Shown: positions 8,597 through 61,875 of the stretch, piece after piece | Layout of the letters: each line of letters starts with the position of its first letter | Position numbering within the stretch: the stretch's first letter is position 1 | Assembly: GCA_028753945.1 (NCBI GenBank) | Contig: JAPNXP010000006.1 | Location: forward strand, 1,984,001-2,048,000 | Reading direction: 5' to 3' | Source: Hexactinellida sp. DTS-2022 | Taxonomy: Eukaryota; Porifera; Hexactinellida | Length of the DNA: 64,000 nt | Made by a program: the position numbers and the translations under genes | Notes under the pieces: generated by a model | Seen by the model: only the letters and a program-made list of their open reading frames with translations | The model's database searches: none | Told to the model about the DNA's origin: nothing

Positions 8597-8817
8597 AATA
8601 GTAATATATTACTTATAATAATGTTATTGTATATAGGAAGAAATATAAGTAATAGCAATACGGTACATAGTAATATATTACATTTTAGAGCAATTGACCT
8701 CAGGCCTGGTATTATAGATTAAGTTTTATTTTACATATATAGCACTTCATTTATTTATATGGGTTAATGAATGTGCTGAATTCAAAAGGTGGGAGCGCTG
8801 CGTTAGTGCGAAATTGG

Positions 8818-9042
8818 GGGTTGTCACTAGTTCAAATTTTCTAAGTTGTCATTAGTTCTACTGATAATTCATAGAGTTGTCATTAGTTCTACTTAAATTT
8901 CATAGAGTTGTCATTAGTTCTACTGATATTTCATAGAGTTGTCATTAGTTCTACTGACATTTCATAGAGTTGTCATTAGTTCTACTGACATTTCATAGAG
9001 TTGCCATTAGTTCTATTGTAAGATTCATGGAGTTGTCATTAC
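8818..9042 (+). repeat. 31-bp minisatellite, left arm of the MULE TIR
   Basis: About six to seven units of the type TTGTCATTAGTTCTACTGA followed by a TTTCATAGAG tail repeat with a 31-bp period (for example GTCATTAG at 8941 and 8972). The same units occur in reverse complement at 11309-11450. There are no unique spacers, so this is not a CRISPR-like array. Confidence 0.92.
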
Positions 9043-9206: not shown

Positions 9207-10667
9207 ATGGAATACAAAATAGATAATTATCGACGACAGACTGGCCAAGTTCTCACAACAGCAGATGGCCATAAATATCTTAGACGCAAATATACAAATA
9301 ATGTAGTCTACCTGAAATGTGCTCTCTTCAGAGATGGCTGTAGACTCAGAGTAGAGCTACGGCAAAATTGAATTGGATTACTGACTTGATTACCCCGGGC
9401 TCAATCCATAACCATAACTTGCTGAAATACAGTTCTGATATTTTCCAATTAACAAAGAGATGTAAAACAGTTGCACGTACCTCACAAGATAACCTTAGGA
9501 AAATTTTTGATGATGCAGTACGAGAGGATCCTTTTGCTCAAGAGGTAACCTTCAATGAGTGCGAATCCTCTATGTATCGCTCGCGAACAGGCCTTCATCT
9601 GGGTGCGCGGAGCGCACCCAGGGGTGCGTGATTTCAAGAAAAATTGCTGGAAGGGTGCGTGAAATTGGAATTATTTTGGGTGCGAAGTGCGCACCCAGAG
9701 TATTTTAATACTAATTTTGGTCTTTTTTTTGATAAATGTCCTATTTTTGGTAAATTTGGGCGCGATTGTAAAATGAACATCACTTTGGGTGCGCGGATCT
9801 CTTAGGGCTAGATGAAGGCCTGCTCGCGAAGAAGATCTCAACCGAAAATACCTTCAAATGCTTCTGAATTATCTGAAATGATATCAACTCCACTATGAAA
9901 GTTTCATAAAAGTACAATTTCAGTGAATAACCAAACTGCACTGATATTCTTCTCTGATAGAATGAGTGAATTGATGCCACGAATAAATCATATCCAGTCC
10001 GATGGAACCTTCTACTGTGTTCAGAAGCAATTCTATCAACTGTGGACAGTTTTTGTAACAGTTGGCAGACACAACTTACCTGCTATCCGTTGTCTTTTAA
10101 CTGGCAAAGAACAAGAGCTATACAAGTGCATTTTGAATAGCATTCGCATCCTCATACCCCAATTCAACCCCACAACATGTATGTCAGACTGGGAAATCGC
10201 CCCACGAAATGCATTGAGAGATATTTATCCTAATGTTGAAGTAAAGGGCTCTTGGTTTCATTTACACAACGCATTTGGCATCAAACTCAAAAATCGGACT
10301 TGTAAAGAATTTTCACAACAATCAAGAGTTATCAACATTTGTAAGACACTTAATGGAGATTCCCTTTCTGCCAAGTACACTTATACGACCAACATATAAC
10401 CTTATAAGTACTCCGAAGACACTTAATGACACAGAAAAAGCCAACATAGACAAGCTCAAACGATATTTACAAAGAGATGGCTCGGTTAAGTTAGTTCTGA
10501 TGAATTATCGATAATTTGACGCAGAATCAACTACAAACAATGGAGCTGAAAGTTATCATGCAAAGCTCAAAAGAAGAGTTCAGACAAGTCATCCCCGAAT
10601 TTGGAGCTTTTTATCATTATTAAACGAAATAATCGTTGACACTGATCTTGAAGTTGAAAGTTGTTGA
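9207..10667 (+). pseudogene. FLYWCH-MULE transposase, decayed
   Basis: A MULE transposase would cut and re-insert the surrounding element. The first frame (ATG 9207 to about 9373) encodes a FLYWCH-type zinc finger: GHKYLRRKY, then a C-x5-C pair (KCALFRDGC) and an HNH about 9412 after a frameshift. A 235-bp hAT MITE (9588-9822) breaks the next part. The MULE catalytic domain is at about 9923-10399: IQSDGTF gives the first Asp, CMSDWE the second. After another frameshift, TTNNGAESYHAKLK at about 10527-10568 gives the third acidic residue, with SHPRIWSFL after it. The domain order is that of animal MULEs. At least three frameshifts and one insertion mean it is dead. The full protein would be about 450-500 residues, on the short side for the family, so parts may be lost. 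Confidence 0.82.
9588..9822. mobile_element. hAT MITE, 235 bp, inserted in the MULE transposase
   Basis: The ends CAGGCCTTCATC and GATGAAGGCCTG are inverted repeats, flanked by perfect 8-bp duplications CTCGCGAA (9580-9587 and 9823-9830). The inside contains several GGGTGCGC and GCGCACCC motifs. Related termini (CAGGCTTTCATC) bound the elements at 12271-12483 and 44823-45007. Confidence 0.92.
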
Positions 10668-11250: not shown

Positions 11251-11857
11251 CCTTTTTACCATGTAAGCATGCGAATTGCTGTACAGGATGCAATAAAAGA
11301 ATTGATGAACTAATGAAAACTCTGAGAAATGTCAGTAGAACTAATGACAACTCTATGAAATGTCAGAAGAACTAATGACAACTCTATGAAATATCAGTAG
11401 AACTAATGACAACTCTATGAAATATCAGTAGAACTAATGACAACTTAGGAAATTCGCACAAGTGACAACCCCCATTTTCGCACTAATGCATGCACCTCCA
11501 AAAGGATATGCTTTAATTTATTATAATTTTAAAGTTGATAATTAATTATCAAGCCTATTTCACAACAGGGTTTCATACACGGGTGCCTGTGTTATATGAG
11601 CATTTACCCTTCTCCCTGTTAATTTAGGGGATACGTACAGTTGTTTGATCTTAATTAATCAAAAACATAAATTCCCTTTAATCTCAACTTTTATAGAAAC
11701 GAGCCTTCTGTTTTGGTAGCTTGGTGACGGATTACTCATCCCGTTATCCGCTTACATAGTTTATATTTGAAGATACCAACACAAAAATTTCGTAATCAAC
11801 ATTTTTGATTACCTATTATAACTGTTAGAGTTGGAATTGGATTTCGAATATTACAAT

Positions 11858-17632: not shown

Positions 17633-18346
17633 CATCATACCTTATGGCCAAACTATACTCAAGAATGACATTTGAGATTAGGTTGTTTTTGGATAGTAAC
17701 CCATAAAGTAAACTAGCATTAAAAATTTCAGCTGAATCTGAGTCATACTTTTAACGTTGCACCCTTTTTAGAGATTAGGAATGTGTCCATCATCATCAAA
17801 AGGTCATTTTTAAAATGGACGATCATAACTTTTGGTCTAGATTTCACAAATTTGGTTCAACATGTTTGAAACCAAGTGTAAATGAATGAATACATATGTA
17901 CCTTTATAGAAACACGAATATTTAATATTTTGGCTCGAAACTTTCAGAGTTACAGCACTTTGAAGTCAAACTTCGACCCCAAAACTACGAAAAAGTGACG
18001 TTTGTCAGTTGAAATCCGAATTCAAAGTGCTGTAACTCTGAAAGTTTCGATCCAAAATATTAAATATTCGTGTTTCTAAGAAGGTACATATGTATTCATT
18101 CATTTACACTTGGTTTCAAACATGTTGAACCAAATTTGTGAAATCTAGACCAAAAGTTATGATCGTCCATTTTAAAAATGACCTTTTGATGATGATGGAC
18201 ACATTCCTAAGCTCTAAAAAGGGTGCAACGTCAAAAGTAAGAGTCAGATTCAGCTGAAATTTTTAATGCTAGTTTACTTTATGGGTTACTATCCAAAAAC
18301 AACCTAATCTCAAATGTCATTCTTGAGTATAGTTGGGCCTTATACC
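17633..18346. repeat. Giant near-perfect palindrome, arms ~330 bp
   Basis: The left arm (about 17633-17964) and the right arm (about 18021-18346) are reverse complements with only scattered mismatches (for example GGCCAAACTATACTC against GAGTATAGTTGGGCC). The non-palindromic centre is about 56 bp. A transcript would fold into a ~330-bp hairpin. No clear TSD was found. Frames inside do not look coding. Confidence 0.95.
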
Positions 18347-18441: not shown

Positions 18442-19787
18442 CCAGGGACTTCTTTAATATAGGGACTGTAAACTTCATTTTACGGTAAAATTAGCGTAGG
18501 CCTAAAACAGTATTGTTACTTATTGATATCCCGTAATCCGCTAATGCTAGGCACAGGAAATGTGTTATTGTCGTATAAGAAGTCATATTTTGGGAGTCCA
18601 ACGGTCATATTGGTTTATCGAAAATATTTGTGGAATGTAATTATGCGATTATCACACCTTTCCATTTATGGTAATATTGTTAAAGTCTCGAGATTAGTTA
18701 ACTTTATCCATATGAAATTTATTATTGGCGAATGGGAAATGGGAATTCATATTCAGGGACTCAGTATATCACATTGATTTACCTAAGGCGTTCCCCTTAG
18801 CCTATATTATTATTTTGGCACTCTCCACAGGAGGATTGCCCCGACCCTGTTTTGTAGTTTAGCTGATTCTTACCTATCAGATATCTGTCATTATGTTGTT
18901 TATTAAAAAATCTTGATAAGTTTCTTTCAAATCTATATTTAAATCAATGTTGTCCAATGAAATGTATTAAGTGGTGATGAGAAATGGATTTAGAACTACA
19001 TATTCTGATAAAATTCAAAAATTTTTAATACTTTATACATTAATTTCCCATTAACTCTGCTGTTATTCAACAGACCGGCTAACTGGTTAATAAAATCTCT
19101 AACCGTTAACCAATGTCAGCAACGGTAACCGGTTAACCGAATCCTGCCTTGTTGTTTTTTAATAAACAACATAATGACAGATTGCTGATAGGTAAGTATT
19201 AGCTAAACTACAAAACAGGGTCGGGACAATCCTCCTGGCAGCTGTGGAGAGTGCCAAAATAATAATATAGGCTAGGGGAACGCCTTGGGTAAATCAATGT
19301 GATCTACTGAGCCCCTAAATATGAATTCCCATTTCCCATTCGCCAATAATAAATTTAATATGTATAAAACTAACTAATCTCGAAATTTAACAATATTACC
19401 ATATATGGAAAGGTGTGAGAATCGCATAACTTACATTCCACAAATATTTTCGATAAACCAATATGACCGTTGTACTCCCAAAATATGATTTCCTGTACGA
19501 AAATGATACATTTCATATGTATAAAGTTATGTAATCTAGAGATTTTAACAATAATACCATATATGGAATGGTGTGAAAATCGCACAACTTACATTCCACA
19601 AATATTTTCGATAAACCAATATTACCGTTGGACTCCCACAATATGACTTCCTATGCGACAATAATACATTTCCTGTGTCTAGCATTAGCGGATTACGGGA
19701 TATCAATAAGTAACAATACTGTTTTAGGCCTAAGCTAATTTTACCGTAAAACGAAGTTTACAGTCCCTATATTAAAGAAGTCCCTGG
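18442..19787. mobile_element. Long-TIR element (CCAGGGAC family), copy 1
   Basis: It starts CCAGGGACTTCTTTAATATA and ends with the exact complement. The inverted arms extend for about 450 bp, through AAAACAGTATTGTTACTTAT, CATATTGGTTTATCGAAAAT and GGCGTTCCCCTTAGCC. The right arm holds an extra tandem copy of about 185 bp (19420-19610). Flanks are CATAA on both sides (18437-18441 and 19788-19792), a 5-bp TSD. The middle (19080-19150) has GGTTAACCGGTTAAC-like palindromic sequence. No transposase is present. Further copies: 34788-35992 and, truncated, 53759-54320. Confidence 0.85.
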
Positions 19788-20759: not shown

Positions 20760-21158
<399 letters not shown>

Positions 21159-21397
21159 TGAAACTTGATTGTTTCTTTGTGTATTTGTGTCTGTCCAAAA
21201 TTAATTGGAAATCCATATGTTCCTCAAATCTGAAGTTTGCATACTTGGTTAATTTACACGCTGACAACGACTATAGGGTTTCTAACCAAAATAACAGGAT
21301 TATGACGTCATCAATGCACATTTGGGAATAAATTTTCAGTTTATAGCCTATTATCCCACAATTTATATTGCAAAACAACATATAATGAGACAAGTGT

Positions 21398-34787: not shown

Positions 34788-35992
34788 CCAGGGACTACTT
34801 TAATATAGGGACTTCTTTAATATAGGGACTGTAAACTTCGTTTTACGGTAAAATTAGCTTAGGCCTAAAACAGTATTGTTACTTATTGATATCCCGTAAT
34901 CCGCTAATGCTAGGCACAGGAAATGTATTATTGTCGTATAAGAAGTCATATTTTGGGAGTTCAACGGTCATATTGGTTTATCGAAAATATTTGTGGAATG
35001 TAAGTTATGCGATTATCACACCTTTCCATTTATGGTAATATTGTTAAAGTCTCGAGATTAGTTAACTTTATCCATATGAAATTTATTATTGGCGAATGGG
35101 AAATGGGAATTCATATTTAGGGACTCAGTACATCACATTGATTTACCTAAGGCGTTCCCCTTAGCCTATATTATTATTTTGGCACTCTCCACAGGAGGAT
35201 TGCACCGACCCTATTTTGTAGTTTAGCTATTTCTTACCTATCAGATATCTGTCATTATGTTGTTTATTAAAAAATCTTGATAAGTTTCTTTCAAATCTAT
35301 ATTTAAATCAATGTTGTCCAATAAAATTCATTAAGTGGTGATGAGAAATGGATTTAGAACTACATATTCTGATAAAATTCAAAAAAAATTAATACTTTAT
35401 ACATTAATTTCCCATTAACTCTGCTGTTATTCAACAGACCGGCTAACTGGTTAATAAAATCTCTAACCGTTACAGATATCACAACAGTTAACTGGTTAAC
35501 CGAATCCAGCCTTGTTGTTTTTTAATAAACAACATAATGATAGATATCTGATAGGTAAGAATTAGCTAAGCTACAAAACAGGGTCGGGGCAATCCTCTTG
35601 TGCAGCTGTAGAGAGTGCCAAAATAATAATATAGGCTAGGGGGAACGCCTTAGGTAAATCAAAGTATCTACTGAGTCCCTAAATATGAATTCCCATTTCT
35701 CATTCGCCAATAATAAATTTCATATGTATAAAGTTAACTAATCTCGAGACCTTAACAATATTACCATAAATGGAAACGTGTGATAATCGCATAACTTACA
35801 TTCCACAAATATTTTCGATAAATCAATATGACCGTTGGACTCCCAAATATGACTTCCTATACGACAATAATACATTTCCTGTGTCTAGCATTAGCGGATA
35901 TCGGGATATCAATAAGTGACAATACTGGTTTAGGCCTACGCTGATTTACCGTAAAACGAAGTTTACAGTCCCTATATTAAAGAAGTCCCTGG
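34788..35992. mobile_element. Long-TIR element (CCAGGGAC family), copy 2
   Basis: It has the same inverted ends as 18442-19787, arms of roughly 500 bp, and a total length of 1205 bp. Flanks are CACAA on both sides (34783-34787 and 35993-35997). The left end carries a small duplication of CTTTAATATAGGGACT. The middle retains GGTTAACCGAATCC. Copy 1's extra tandem block in the right arm is absent here, so the two copies differ by that duplication. Confidence 0.87.
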
Positions 35993-36009: not shown

Positions 36010-36933
36010 TCTGGTCGTTGGAAGGTTGAACCTATAAAAATTCATACAAAGCGTATTTTAGTATCATTAGAAGCGGAATTTTTCGTAGAACAACATATCC
36101 AAAATCCGCTAAAATCAGTTTGGGGAAAGTTTTTTACACGGGTGGCAGTGTCGGCCCTTTCATAGAAAATCGCCGACATTTTCGTAACTAACTTTCTCAA
36201 ATCAATTCTAATCAACTTATAATCATCATATTTGTACTCCGCGTAAAATTTCCAGCAATTTGATATATCACATGACAACATTTGGAGGATTTTTTCCATA
36301 GCAACGCTGGAATGTATCAAAAATATGTCAGGAATGTGCAAACATTCCATTCTCAAATTGTGTGCCTATCCAATCTAGTGACCCCTCGTTCAACTCCACT
36401 AGTATAATTATACACATATCGACCCTCTAAAATCGGATTTGACGAGATTAATCGAGATAAACCTAAAATTGAAGATTTTCAGCTAAATCTCGTCAAATCC
36501 CATTTTAAAGGGTCGATATGTGTATAATTATACTAGTGGAGTTGAACGAGGGGTCACTAGATTGGATAGGCACACAATTTGAGAATGGAATGTTCGCACA
36601 TTCCTGACATTTTTGATACCTTCCAGCGTTGCTATGGAAAAAATCCTCCAAATGATGTCATGTGATATATCAAATTGCTGGAAATTTTACGCGGAGTACA
36701 AATATGATGATTATAAGTTGATTAGAATTGATTTGAGAAAGGTAGTTACGAAAATGTCAGCGATTTACTATGAAATGGCCGACACTGCCACCCGTGTAAA
36801 AATTTTTCCCCAAACGGATTTTAGCGGATTTTGGATATGTTATTCTACGAAAAATTCCGCTTCTAAAGATACTAAATACGCTTTGTATGAATTTTTTCTA
36901 GGTATGACCCATTTTGGGTTTTCAACGACCAGA
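36010..36933. repeat. Giant palindrome, arms ~440 bp
   Basis: The left arm (36010-36448) and right arm (36487-36933) are reverse complements with few mismatches. Examples are TCTGGTCGTTG against CAACGACCAGA at the outer ends and GACGAGAT against ATCTCGTC at the centre. The loop is about 38 bp. The same ~100-codon open frame can be read outward-in from both arms (minus strand 36356-36042, plus strand 36613-36957); this follows from symmetry and is not evidence of a gene. Confidence 0.95.
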
Positions 36934-58286: not shown

Positions 58287-61200
58287 CATGGCCTACTTAA
58301 TATACGGCCGTGTATCGGTGTATGTCACCGAGAAGGCCAAAAAATAGAAGGCCAGTTTATAAATTTCATTCTAGGCTAAACTATGCCTCCTATTGTTATT
58401 ATTTGCATTGTATATGGGGTAATCAACCATTGCGAGTCCAATGGAACCACTTTTTAGAATCTCAGATTTGTGGTTAAGCTGTTTAGGCGCCATTTAATGA
58501 TGACGTCAGCATATACTATATATATTGTATTAATTAATATTATTATAATTATACGCATGAAATTAGTAGAAGTGAAATCATGGTAATAAATTCAAAATCA
58601 GAGAATTAGACAATAGACAATAGGAATGTGAAGCAATAAATCAATCCAGATCAATTGAAGTATGCATAATGTGGTTAGAATGTGGCAGATCAAAATAACA
58701 TTCGAGCTTCTGTGGAATATAAATAACTAATCACTTTGACATTCCATAAAACACTTGACAAAACTTTGAAACCACCTCTGTAGCCATAAAAGAAATTATC
58801 TGTTATTCCACTAGTATTCTTCAACATAATTTTCCTTCAAATATGCCCAATAAATGTTCAGTTCCTGGATGTAACACAAATTACGAGTTATGTCAGACTA
58901 AACCAGTTTTCAGATTTCCACAGGATCAAGTACTCTCAAAAAAGTGGCTAGAATTTTTGAATAGGAAAGATTACGAGTCCAGCAAATCTTCTGTAATGTG
59001 TATTGATCATTTTGAAGATAAATATCTTATCAAAAATAAAGAAAGAATCAGGCTTGATTATTCTATGAGTCCAATTCCTACTATTCACCCGAAATCCATT
59101 CCACTATCCCAAGCTCCAGTGCCATGTGAACCACGGAAACTCCCAAAAGTTCGAGTATATGCCCCTGATGAATTAGTAAGTTTCATGTCAATATATGATG
59201 TCAAATCCTTCGATAATCTAGTTGGGTTCATCGTACAAGCAAAAGAATATCAACATTTTCAGTTAGAAATATCTGATAGCAGTATTACAGCATTCCGAGT
59301 CCAGATTTGTTCAGGAATTGCGAGGGTCAAAGAATGCATACACGTTGACAATAGCTTTCATGTCAAGCTAAGCTATGACAGTTGTCCCATCCCACTTCCT
59401 AGTTACATACAAAAAGGTGAAAGATGCAAAATTACTTCTCTAGATATGCTTACAAATCTTCCAACATTGTAGAAATGCTGCAGCAACCTGTGATACAAGC
59501 ATAATTGATGAGTTAACAACGCCAAATACTATAGTCAAAAAGGGAGACCACCTTATTCCTCTAAAGCATTAAGATTTGCTTTAATCTTTCGCTATACTTC
59601 CCTTTCTACATATCGATACCTGCAAGAATTTCTCCCTCTGCCTAGCTTATCTTTATTATACAAATTAAGTGCCAGAGGAGTAGACACCAGTAAAAGTTTG
59701 ATCTCTTTAAGGGAGAATTCTATATTTGGTAACGACGTGATCATATTGCTCGACGAAATGTATTTACAGCAAGAAGTTCAGTACGATGGGCGAGAATTAA
59801 CTGGATGCACTAATCTATTACAATTGTACAAAAGCATACTTTGCTTTATGGTGGTTTCTTTGAAGCAATCAACACCTTTTATACTAAAAGCTATTCCACT
59901 CACAAAAATTGATAACCATATCGTACAAGATGGTATATTGGATTGCTTGAAAATCCTGAACGAAGCACTCTTCAATACGAGAGCCGTGATCAGCGACAAC
60001 CATCCAACTAACGTTAGCGCGTTTAAACACTTAAAAGAAAGATATCCCTGTTCACTACGCGAAAACTCTATGATTAACCCATCCAACCCAGAGAGACATT
60101 TATATTTATTATTCGACAGCGTTCATTTAATGAAAAACATCAGGAACAACTTGATTTCGAAAAGATTTTTCCAAATTCCGGAACTATCAACAAGTTTAAT
60201 GGATAGCATTTTTGATGTTGTACCTGGGTTTATCAAATGGTCAGTTTTTCATCATATCCATGAAAGAGATTTAGAAATGCAATGCCATTTGAGGAAAGCA
60301 CCCAAAATTTCAGAACAGGTGCTGCATCCTGGAAATAACAAACAATCTGTGCCACATGCACTAGCAATATTCGACTTAACAACTATTGCAGCAATTCGCC
60401 AATACTTTCCCGAAGAAATAACTTCCTCTTCGTTTCTAAATTTGATCTACAATTGGTGGTTAGTTGTAAACGCCAAAGAAAGATTTCATCCTATTATAGT
60501 TGGCAATGCTCTAGTGTCAAATGATGGAAAAATTAATTTTCTGCAGAAAATGAATAACTGGCTAAATCAATGGGGAGACTAAAAAAAGTATGGCCTGTCT
60601 AAGCAAACATTTGATGCTCTAATCTGTACTAACCAAGCAATTGCAGACCTTAGCACAGATTTACTAAATGAAGGCTATCTATATGTTCTTACAGGAAGGT
60701 TACAAACGGATCCTCTTGAAAGAAGATTTTCACAGTATAGGCAAATGTCAGGAGGTAGGTTTTTAGTGAGTCTTAAGGATGTATATCGGTCGGAGTCAAT
60801 CATAAGATTGAAAACTATCCTTAGAAATAACATTGAACTCACCTCAATTTCAGTTTCTTCATCGGATGAACAAACAGCCATCATAGAACATTTTCTAACA
60901 GAAATTGGCAATGAAAACTTCGATGATTTAACTATTTCCCAAGATACAATTGATGTCATCATCTATGTAGCAGGATATATATCTCTGTCTCTAGTCAGAC
61001 ACATTGAATGTGAATTGTATACAATTTCCCTCAACAATGATCCTGTTTCTAGTGCCTACCTAGATGAAAGTAATAAAGGAGGCCTCAAGTATCCAACTTC
61101 ATCATTGAGCAACTATGTACAATCAGCTTTTTCAGTTCTTAACTTTTTAGAGAAAAGAATTTTAAAATTAGACGTTCCCTCCAAAGTTGTAGCACAGTGT

Positions 61201-61875
61201 GTCCTGAATCGCTACTCATCTGATTGGGAATATTCTTTTGTCTGTGAATATCACTCTGACATTGGTTGTCAAAAGGTAAACTCCATCGTTGCAAATTGCT
61301 TCTTGAAGAACATAGCAAGGGATGTCAGTGAAAAGAGAAGATTGGATCAAGTAAGAGAATTTAAAAGAAGACAAATAAGTCGTGATGACAAGTAAATATT
61401 TATCTGGCACAGTAATATATGAAAATCATGTATTAATTAATAAATTATTAAATAATTTAATATTTATGGGTCGCTATAATTTGTTTCATCATTAAACCAC
61501 ATGGAATTGGTTATGTATTGTTCATTCTTTAGAAATTAGCTATTGAATAAATGATCATGAAATAAGTAGCATTCAAACTATGTTAAATCAATCATTCTAT
61601 AATTTTCGTCAAAATACTTACAATAGTAATATTAATACAATATATATATATAGTATATGCTGACGTCATCATTAAATGGCGCCTAAACAGCTTAACCACA
61701 AATCTGAGATTCTCAAAAGTGGTTCCATTGGAATCGCAATGGTTGATTACCCCATATACAACCCAAATAATAACAATAGGAGGCATAGTTTATCCTATAA
61801 TGAAATTTATAAACTGGCCTTCTATTTTTTTGGCCTTCTCGGTGACATACACGGCCGTATATTAAGTAGGCCATG
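58287..61875 (+). mobile_element. P element, 3589 bp, with ~250-bp TIRs
   Basis: The left end CATGGCCTACTTAATATACG and the right end (exact complement) are flanked by ATATCAC on both sides (58280-58286 and 61876-61882), a 7-bp TSD. The inverted repeats extend inward through GGCCGTGTAT, GTCACCGAGAAGGCC, GTGGTTAAGCTGTTTAGGCG (one mismatch in the partner) and GATGACGTCAGCATATAC, to about 58545 and 61628. The two arms are about 95% alike. One ~14-bp insertion near 58313 is present only in the left arm. Between them is a P transposase (58843-61395). The element sits in a kinase intron, in the same direction as the host gene. Confidence 0.9.
58843..61395 (+). pseudogene. THAP-domain P-element transposase, one nonsense codon
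   Basis: This would encode the P-family transposase, related to vertebrate THAP9. From ATG 58843: a THAP zinc finger (C5, C10, W35, C53, H56, then F57 and a SPIPTI motif near 77-82), about 83 residues. A central part follows, then an RNase H-like catalytic domain with ILLDEMY (about 59752) and ISDNHPTN (about 59990) as likely acidic motifs, LLFDSVHLMKN (about 60107), and a C-terminal GRLQTDPLERRFSQYRQ (about 60694) followed by SGG, whose Glu fits the last catalytic residue. The frame is broken at 59470-59515. A 66-nt GT-AG intron (59469-59534) would remove those stops and keep the frame, so it may be a true intron. The TAA at 60580 lies inside conserved sequence (NWLNQWGD before, KKYGLSKQT after) in the same frame, and is the only clear inactivating change. 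Length would be about 828 codons, normal for the family. Confidence 0.88.

Follow-up and report, generated by a model that had tools for sequence, protein, structure and literature searches.

The palindrome that occupies positions 17646 to 18339 of the window (the whole stretch of 64,000 nucleotides analysed, C15:1984001-2048000) is one copy of a small family of repeats that inserts at TTAA, and is in this respect an ordinary element. Its 694-bp unit is very probably a non-autonomous cut-and-paste transposon amplified in trans, with arms that were symmetric when it spread and were copied in patches afterwards. The element would have been amplified as a unit by a TTAA-specific transposase acting in trans, most likely of the piggyBac type. 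The likeness of its arms would have two sources: symmetry that the palindrome already possessed when it multiplied, and later copying of mid-arm patches from one arm onto the other. This pattern is visible in the aligned copies, and the probable route of copying would be mismatch repair in a hairpin or cruciform, or short gene conversion.

Structure and insertion of the 694-bp palindrome

In the window, the inverted-repeat finder placed arm A at 17643-17977 (+ strand) and arm B at 18008-18342 (- strand). The arms are 335 nt each, 96% complementary and separated by a central 30-nt spacer (17978-18007); with these bounds, the first three bases of arm A and the last three of arm B lie within the target-site duplication. 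Self-comparison of the window showed 700 bp complementary without gaps at 93.1%, the spacer being counted in. The palindrome contains no reading frame that reaches 120 aa, and the window had no Rfam match at the gathering scores. The near-perfect palindrome in non-coding DNA reported in the preliminary description is therefore borne out, although the limits given to it (17633-18346, 714 bp) were slightly wide: if the terminal GGCC is taken as its limit on each side, the unit measures 694 bp. Folded as RNA, the palindrome reached -529.7 kcal/mol compared to a mean of -135.9 (sd 8.9) for 20 shuffles, a hairpin stability far beyond chance. The siRNA that the preliminary description envisaged from a transcript of this hairpin is hypothetical. 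The neighbouring repeats had been described as far more diverged. Many inverted repeats of the window do lie at 72-86%, but the segment 36036-36896 is equally good (self-complementary at 94.1% over 865 columns); the same self-comparison gave 92.9% for the inverted pair 34807-35274/35518-35990 and 91.3% for the pair 18442-18740/19488-19787. By eye, the foldback repeats 18442-19787 and 34807-35990 look like one family, with similar AGGGACTGTAAACTTC and AGGCCTAAAACAGTAT stretches.

The genome searched comprises 112.4 Mb in 18 contigs. The search for other copies, which the preliminary description had suggested, returned 89 match rows for arm A with the best 40 of 298 candidates scored, so the copy counts of the family are lower bounds. 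Among 20 matching places compared, 11 carry the palindromic form (L021-L028 and L030-L032, of which L026 and L027 are partial) and nine a longer relative sharing its left end (L029 and L033-L040, with L035 interrupted). Over about 700 bp, identity to the window copy is 97.0-99.1% for L021-L025, 96.6% for L028 and 91.9-92.9% for L030-L032. On these nine near-full copies, the recent origin proposed earlier is right in part. Copies of the 694-bp form at unrelated sites share identical end points.

Most copies start and finish with GGCC[A/C]AACTATACTC or near variants, adjoining TTAA-like letters. The window copy, for which no target-site duplication had been seen, is flanked by TTAT on the left (17642-17645) and on the right (18340-18343), where most other copies read have TTAA. 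The flanks of L021, L022, L024 and L025 are TTAA/TTAA, and L023 also has TTAA on both sides, with GGTC at one of its ends. L028 is flanked by TGAA/TTAA, and L030 and L032 have no matching duplication. Exact 4-bp duplications are thus present in six of the nine near-full 694-bp copies with both ends read (the window copy and L021-L025). L031 was left out of this count because its right end is not clean.

Empty sites were looked for among the sequences compared. A match spanning the junction was obtained for four of ten insertions (L022, L025, L037 and L038), whose flanks, joined by a single TTAA, form an uninterrupted repeat in which TTAA is present once. L022 and L025 sit in a 116-bp tandem repeat, L037 sits in a tandem array revealed by self-comparison, and the flanks of L038 match a repeat in L052. 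Among the same sequences, no such match was found for the remaining six (the window copy, L021, L024, L028, L039 and L040). The four restored sites show precise insertion at TTAA. A duplication of fixed length with a matching empty site, the signature of cut-and-paste transposition, is thus available for four of the ten insertions, the one in the window not being among them. The 694-bp unit, which is entirely inverted repeat, inserts at TTAA-like sites with a 4-bp duplication.

Taken together, the shared end motif, the TTAA duplications and the empty sites therefore identify a non-autonomous, self-complementary, TTAA-inserting DNA transposon (a palindromic MITE or foldback element). The preliminary description had been unable to assign the palindrome to a transposon family, and had named as its own refutation many genome copies with clear terminal repeats and target-site duplications; other copies with these features are present, and make it a foldback or MITE-like element. 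The inverted repeats are those of a DNA transposon, and their great length is that of foldback elements of the FB/Mutator type. The element is also short, non-coding, multi-copy and equipped with terminal repeats and a duplication, as MITEs are, with a copy number that is low for a MITE in the 694-bp form. The near-identical arms and the short spacer would equally be expected of an isolated inverted duplication, the scar of a template switch. However, full-length copies elsewhere in the genome, inserted at unrelated sites, sharing the ends and carrying TTAA duplications, in some cases with an empty site, refute this origin, and we regard it as extremely improbable.

The longer relative, candidate transposases and the C11 block

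The longer relative, likewise non-autonomous, is 1562 bp long and has 14-bp terminal repeats, GGCCAAACTATACT. Its flanks are TTAA/TTAA in four of the eight copies with ends read (L037-L040) and imperfect in L029, L033, L034 and L036. When the first 345 bp are compared, the two arms of seven close 694-bp copies resemble the 1562-bp left end (about 86% for L037, 94-96% for L029) more closely than they do the inner 3' arm of that form's internal palindrome (79-81%). The 694-bp and 1562-bp forms share an ancestor. Fold-back of the 1562-bp left end was weighed as the origin of the 694-bp form; descent from 694 to 1562 and the reverse fit equally.

When one mismatch was allowed, the end motif TTAAGGCCNNACTATACT occurred 158 times in the genome. 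Three unpaired ends were examined. L049 and L050 proved to be other relatives (88.8 and 88.7% identical, 1537 bp), and the third, L051, adjoins a RAG1-like frame. In the part of the end-motif places examined, no transposase was found inside elements with these ends. A TTAA target points to piggyBac or Kolobok, and the TTAA duplication is the one that characterizes the piggyBac superfamily. The genome search for piggyBac transposase (PF13843) returned 57 pieces; at eight of these loci (L041-L048), no GGCC terminal repeat was found in 1.5-kb flanks on each side. The element resembles piggyBac-derived MITEs in its TTAA target, its short terminal repeats and its want of a coding region, and piggyBac genes are present in the genome. 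However, its ends are GGCC, whereas piggyBac ends start CCC-type, and no link to a transposase was found. A piggyBac-type transposase is the leading, if unproven, guess for the mobiliser of the 694-bp element.

Mobilisation by Transib, a RAG1-like transposase, was considered as well. Transib is abundant (105 relatives scored among 785 candidates), and Transib-like frames lie 2-3 kb from the right end of the element at two loci, L051, where the frame is upstream of a matching right end, and L053, which is similar. The L051 frame matched Pfam RAG1 just under the cut-off (E 1e-5) and PDB 6pqn, a DNA-mediated transposase that we take to be Helicoverpa zea Transib (E 7e-17). However, this frame lies inside an inverted-repeat pair of its own. 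Moreover, the two Transib copies compared end to end (L054 and L055) terminate in CACAGTG and are flanked by 5-bp duplications, CATTT and TCTCA. The 694-bp element has GGCC ends and a 4-bp TTAA duplication, instead of the CACWGTG-like ends and 5-bp duplication of Transib. Because of the ends and duplications of L054 and L055, which show a separate element, Transib was not taken as the mobiliser, a role that we judge very improbable for it. The two copies are 99.8% identical over 2784 bp and each about 3.08 kb long, with a 3-kb insertion in L055, and they contain an open frame of 713 aa.

The element end motif, common to the 694-bp form and its 1562-bp relative, occurs 69 times genome-wide. A hand count placed 54 of the 69 on contig C11, all within 2.98-11.70 Mb. 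From its length, C11 should hold 13.8% (P about 3e-33, the motifs not being independent, since one element can yield two and copies may have spread locally). At two places read in this block (L022 and L025), 116-bp tandem arrays are present. The piggyBac pieces show a similar distribution (37 of 57 on C11, from 3.6 to 11.6 Mb), and the Transib pieces lean to C11 (26 of 106, a hand count in the best-scored part of 785 candidates). Three controls were examined. Reverse-transcriptase matches fell in the block in nine of 150 cases (best 150 of 608; 11.6 expected), and the second palindrome family, that of 36036-36896, was on C11 at five of 40 places (best 40 of 654), three of them within the block. 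Ras-domain matches were absent from it (0 of 150, best 150 of 251, about 12 expected; P 5e-6), so that at least one large gene family is scarce in the block. The TTAA elements crowd the C11 block more than the other repeats tested. The region between 2.98 and 11.70 Mb could be pericentromeric or non-recombining.

Agreement between the arms of single copies

The arms of a 694-bp copy are 86-95% identical to each other, which is not above the identity of the same arm between copies (90-97%). The differences near the centre (columns 329-347) are common to all seven close copies, and one position near the tip also differs between the arms in all seven. When the partial L026 is added to these seven, variation on both arms is seen at 11 sites among the eight copies, and the two arms of a copy agree in 67 of 86 cells. 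Seven of the 11 are mid-arm sites, located in arm A between 17721 and 17807 (+ strand; 17721, 17742, 17753, 17772, 17774, 17787 and 17807) and in arm B between 18177 and 18263 (- strand; 18263, 18242, 18231, 18212, 18210, 18197 and 18177). Agreement here reaches 50 of 56 cells; the six exceptions all come from the window copy and L021, at three sites. One of the seven sites carries three alleles. At the other four sites, one at the tip and three further in, agreement is 17 of 30.

These mid-arm sites were picked after the fact, and the permutation tests use all sites in columns 20-320. For the seven close copies, 41 of 49 cells agreed compared to 27.6 when the arms were re-paired (P 0.003, 5000 permutations); for ten copies, the values were 134 of 180 and 111 (P 0.0002). 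An identical pattern was seen on both arms at three sites, whereas 0.04 would be expected if variants were placed at random (0 of 20000 runs). Among the minor alleles, counted without L026, L027 and L031, six are on both arms (two of them private) where 0.1-0.3 would be expected, five are mixed and 91 are found on one arm only. The both-arm signal in this family comes from few copies. L022 has the appearance of a close sister to the window copy, its arm B having been overwritten from arm A across 17742-17774; overwriting of arm B of the window copy and L021 from elsewhere is a possible alternative. The gene-conversion-like correction put forward in the preliminary description thus holds in part: variants on both arms of the same copy exceed chance, but most variants are on one arm, and the differences at the centre are old and shared.

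The segment 36036-36896 is a second palindrome of equal quality and belongs to a dispersed family present at 40 places or more. A search with it gave 100 match rows, the best 40 of 654 candidates being scored, and the replicate set consisted of the window copy and 12 of the other 16 near-full-length places (13 copies, 404 gap-free columns). In this set, 24 minor alleles are solely on both arms of their carriers. Sixteen of these are private to one copy, compared to 0.4-1.2 expected from independent hits. A further 137 alleles (104 private) are confined to one arm, and eight are mixed. Shared cells numbered 55, whereas re-paired arms gave a mean of 21.5 and a highest value of 45 (0 of 3000 reached 55). 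As in the first family, the two arms of a copy (87-94% identical) are no more alike than the same arm in different copies (92-96%). Eight differences at the centre (columns 473-486) are fixed. Those at the tip (columns 24-30) occur in 12 of the 13 copies, L065 lacking them, and L062 and L063 have them in reversed order.

The arms might be alike solely through the youth of the family, with no correction between them. Five copies 97-99% identical to the window copy, centre differences fixed across the seven close copies, within-copy arm identities no higher than those of the same arm between copies, and the large excess of one-arm over both-arm alleles all agree with youth. However, youth leaves unexplained why the arms of a copy mostly match at mid-arm sites that have up to three alleles, and why the second family has 16 private both-arm alleles; we find it an unlikely account when taken by itself. 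Matching arms could also arise in assembly or polishing, from reads mapped to the wrong arm; most both-arm sites are indeed mid-arm, away from the unique flanks and the centre, where mis-mapping would act. Against such an artefact, some both-arm alleles recur in several copies located on different contigs (second family, columns 217, 237 and 375), and many one-arm variants persist in the same stretches, so that it too seems improbable. The arm pattern in both families, strong in the second, lends partial support to patchy arm-to-arm copying, an undatable process that mis-mapping of reads may mimic. We put forward tentatively, as possible rather than probable, that sub-kilobase palindromic transposons of this genome repeatedly correct their arms on a hairpin or cruciform template, so that the mid-arms evolve partly in concert and the centre does not.

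If arm correction is true, near-perfect hairpins, and any dsRNA made from them, would be kept beyond what youth allows. Two families with fixed centres as an internal control would then give position-by-position evidence on the way arms are kept alike in hairpin-forming elements, with consequences for cruciform repair and for the time over which MITE hairpins stay sources of dsRNA.

Known palindromic elements and other features of the window

In palindromic MITEs, the whole element is one inverted repeat and is moved in trans. The element described here is likewise entirely one inverted repeat; it differs in having about a dozen 694-bp copies and a longer, asymmetric sister form with a common left end. 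In titles and the openings of abstracts, we found no published account of TTAA palindromic elements with arm correction, which is weak evidence.

Foldback elements of the Galileo and Tetris kinds resemble the present one in their very long inverted repeats and non-autonomous copies. According to passages of the Galileo report (PMC2775673), the terminal repeats of GalileoN-1 and -2 are more than 99% identical inside one copy, whereas those of different copies diverge by about 7%. For GalileoN-4 and -5, which are chimeras formed by ectopic recombination, the passages give about 6% divergence within a copy and less than 1% between matching ends. The within-copy likeness of Galileo terminal repeats is stronger than the arm likeness seen here, and the same passages describe 7-bp duplications, compared to the 4-bp TTAA of the present element. 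For Tetris, the published account suggests that two of the three complete copies have had their internal repeats homogenised (PMC4079207). Tetris is there described with duplications of 8-10 bp, compared to 4 bp here, and with internal tandem repeats (PMC4079207). In large sex-chromosome palindromes, arm-to-arm conversion is established according to parts of two reports (PMC8981503, PMC7023750). Correction of the arms against each other is the point of likeness; those palindromes are large and often gene-bearing, whereas the present ones are mobile elements of less than 1 kb. Given the Galileo and sex-chromosome precedents, the element is of a known kind and correction between arms is not a new idea. 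The site-level arm pattern in two short families is a useful addition.

The window contains other mobile elements. A P element at 58287-61875 has long inverted repeats starting CATGGCC and 7-bp flanks, ATATCAC, on both sides; its frames encode a THAP domain (58759-59472) and a TNP-like RNase H (59512-60582). With two or fewer mismatches, its end motif has 846 genome occurrences, and many of the places listed are paired about 760 bp apart. A MULE transposase fragment (9899-10399, Pfam MULE) lies between the inverted repeats 8799-8982 and 11307-11490. Finally, a protein kinase exon (20760-21161, Pfam Pkinase), which resembles Misshapen/TNIK, is located about 2.4 kb downstream of the palindrome.
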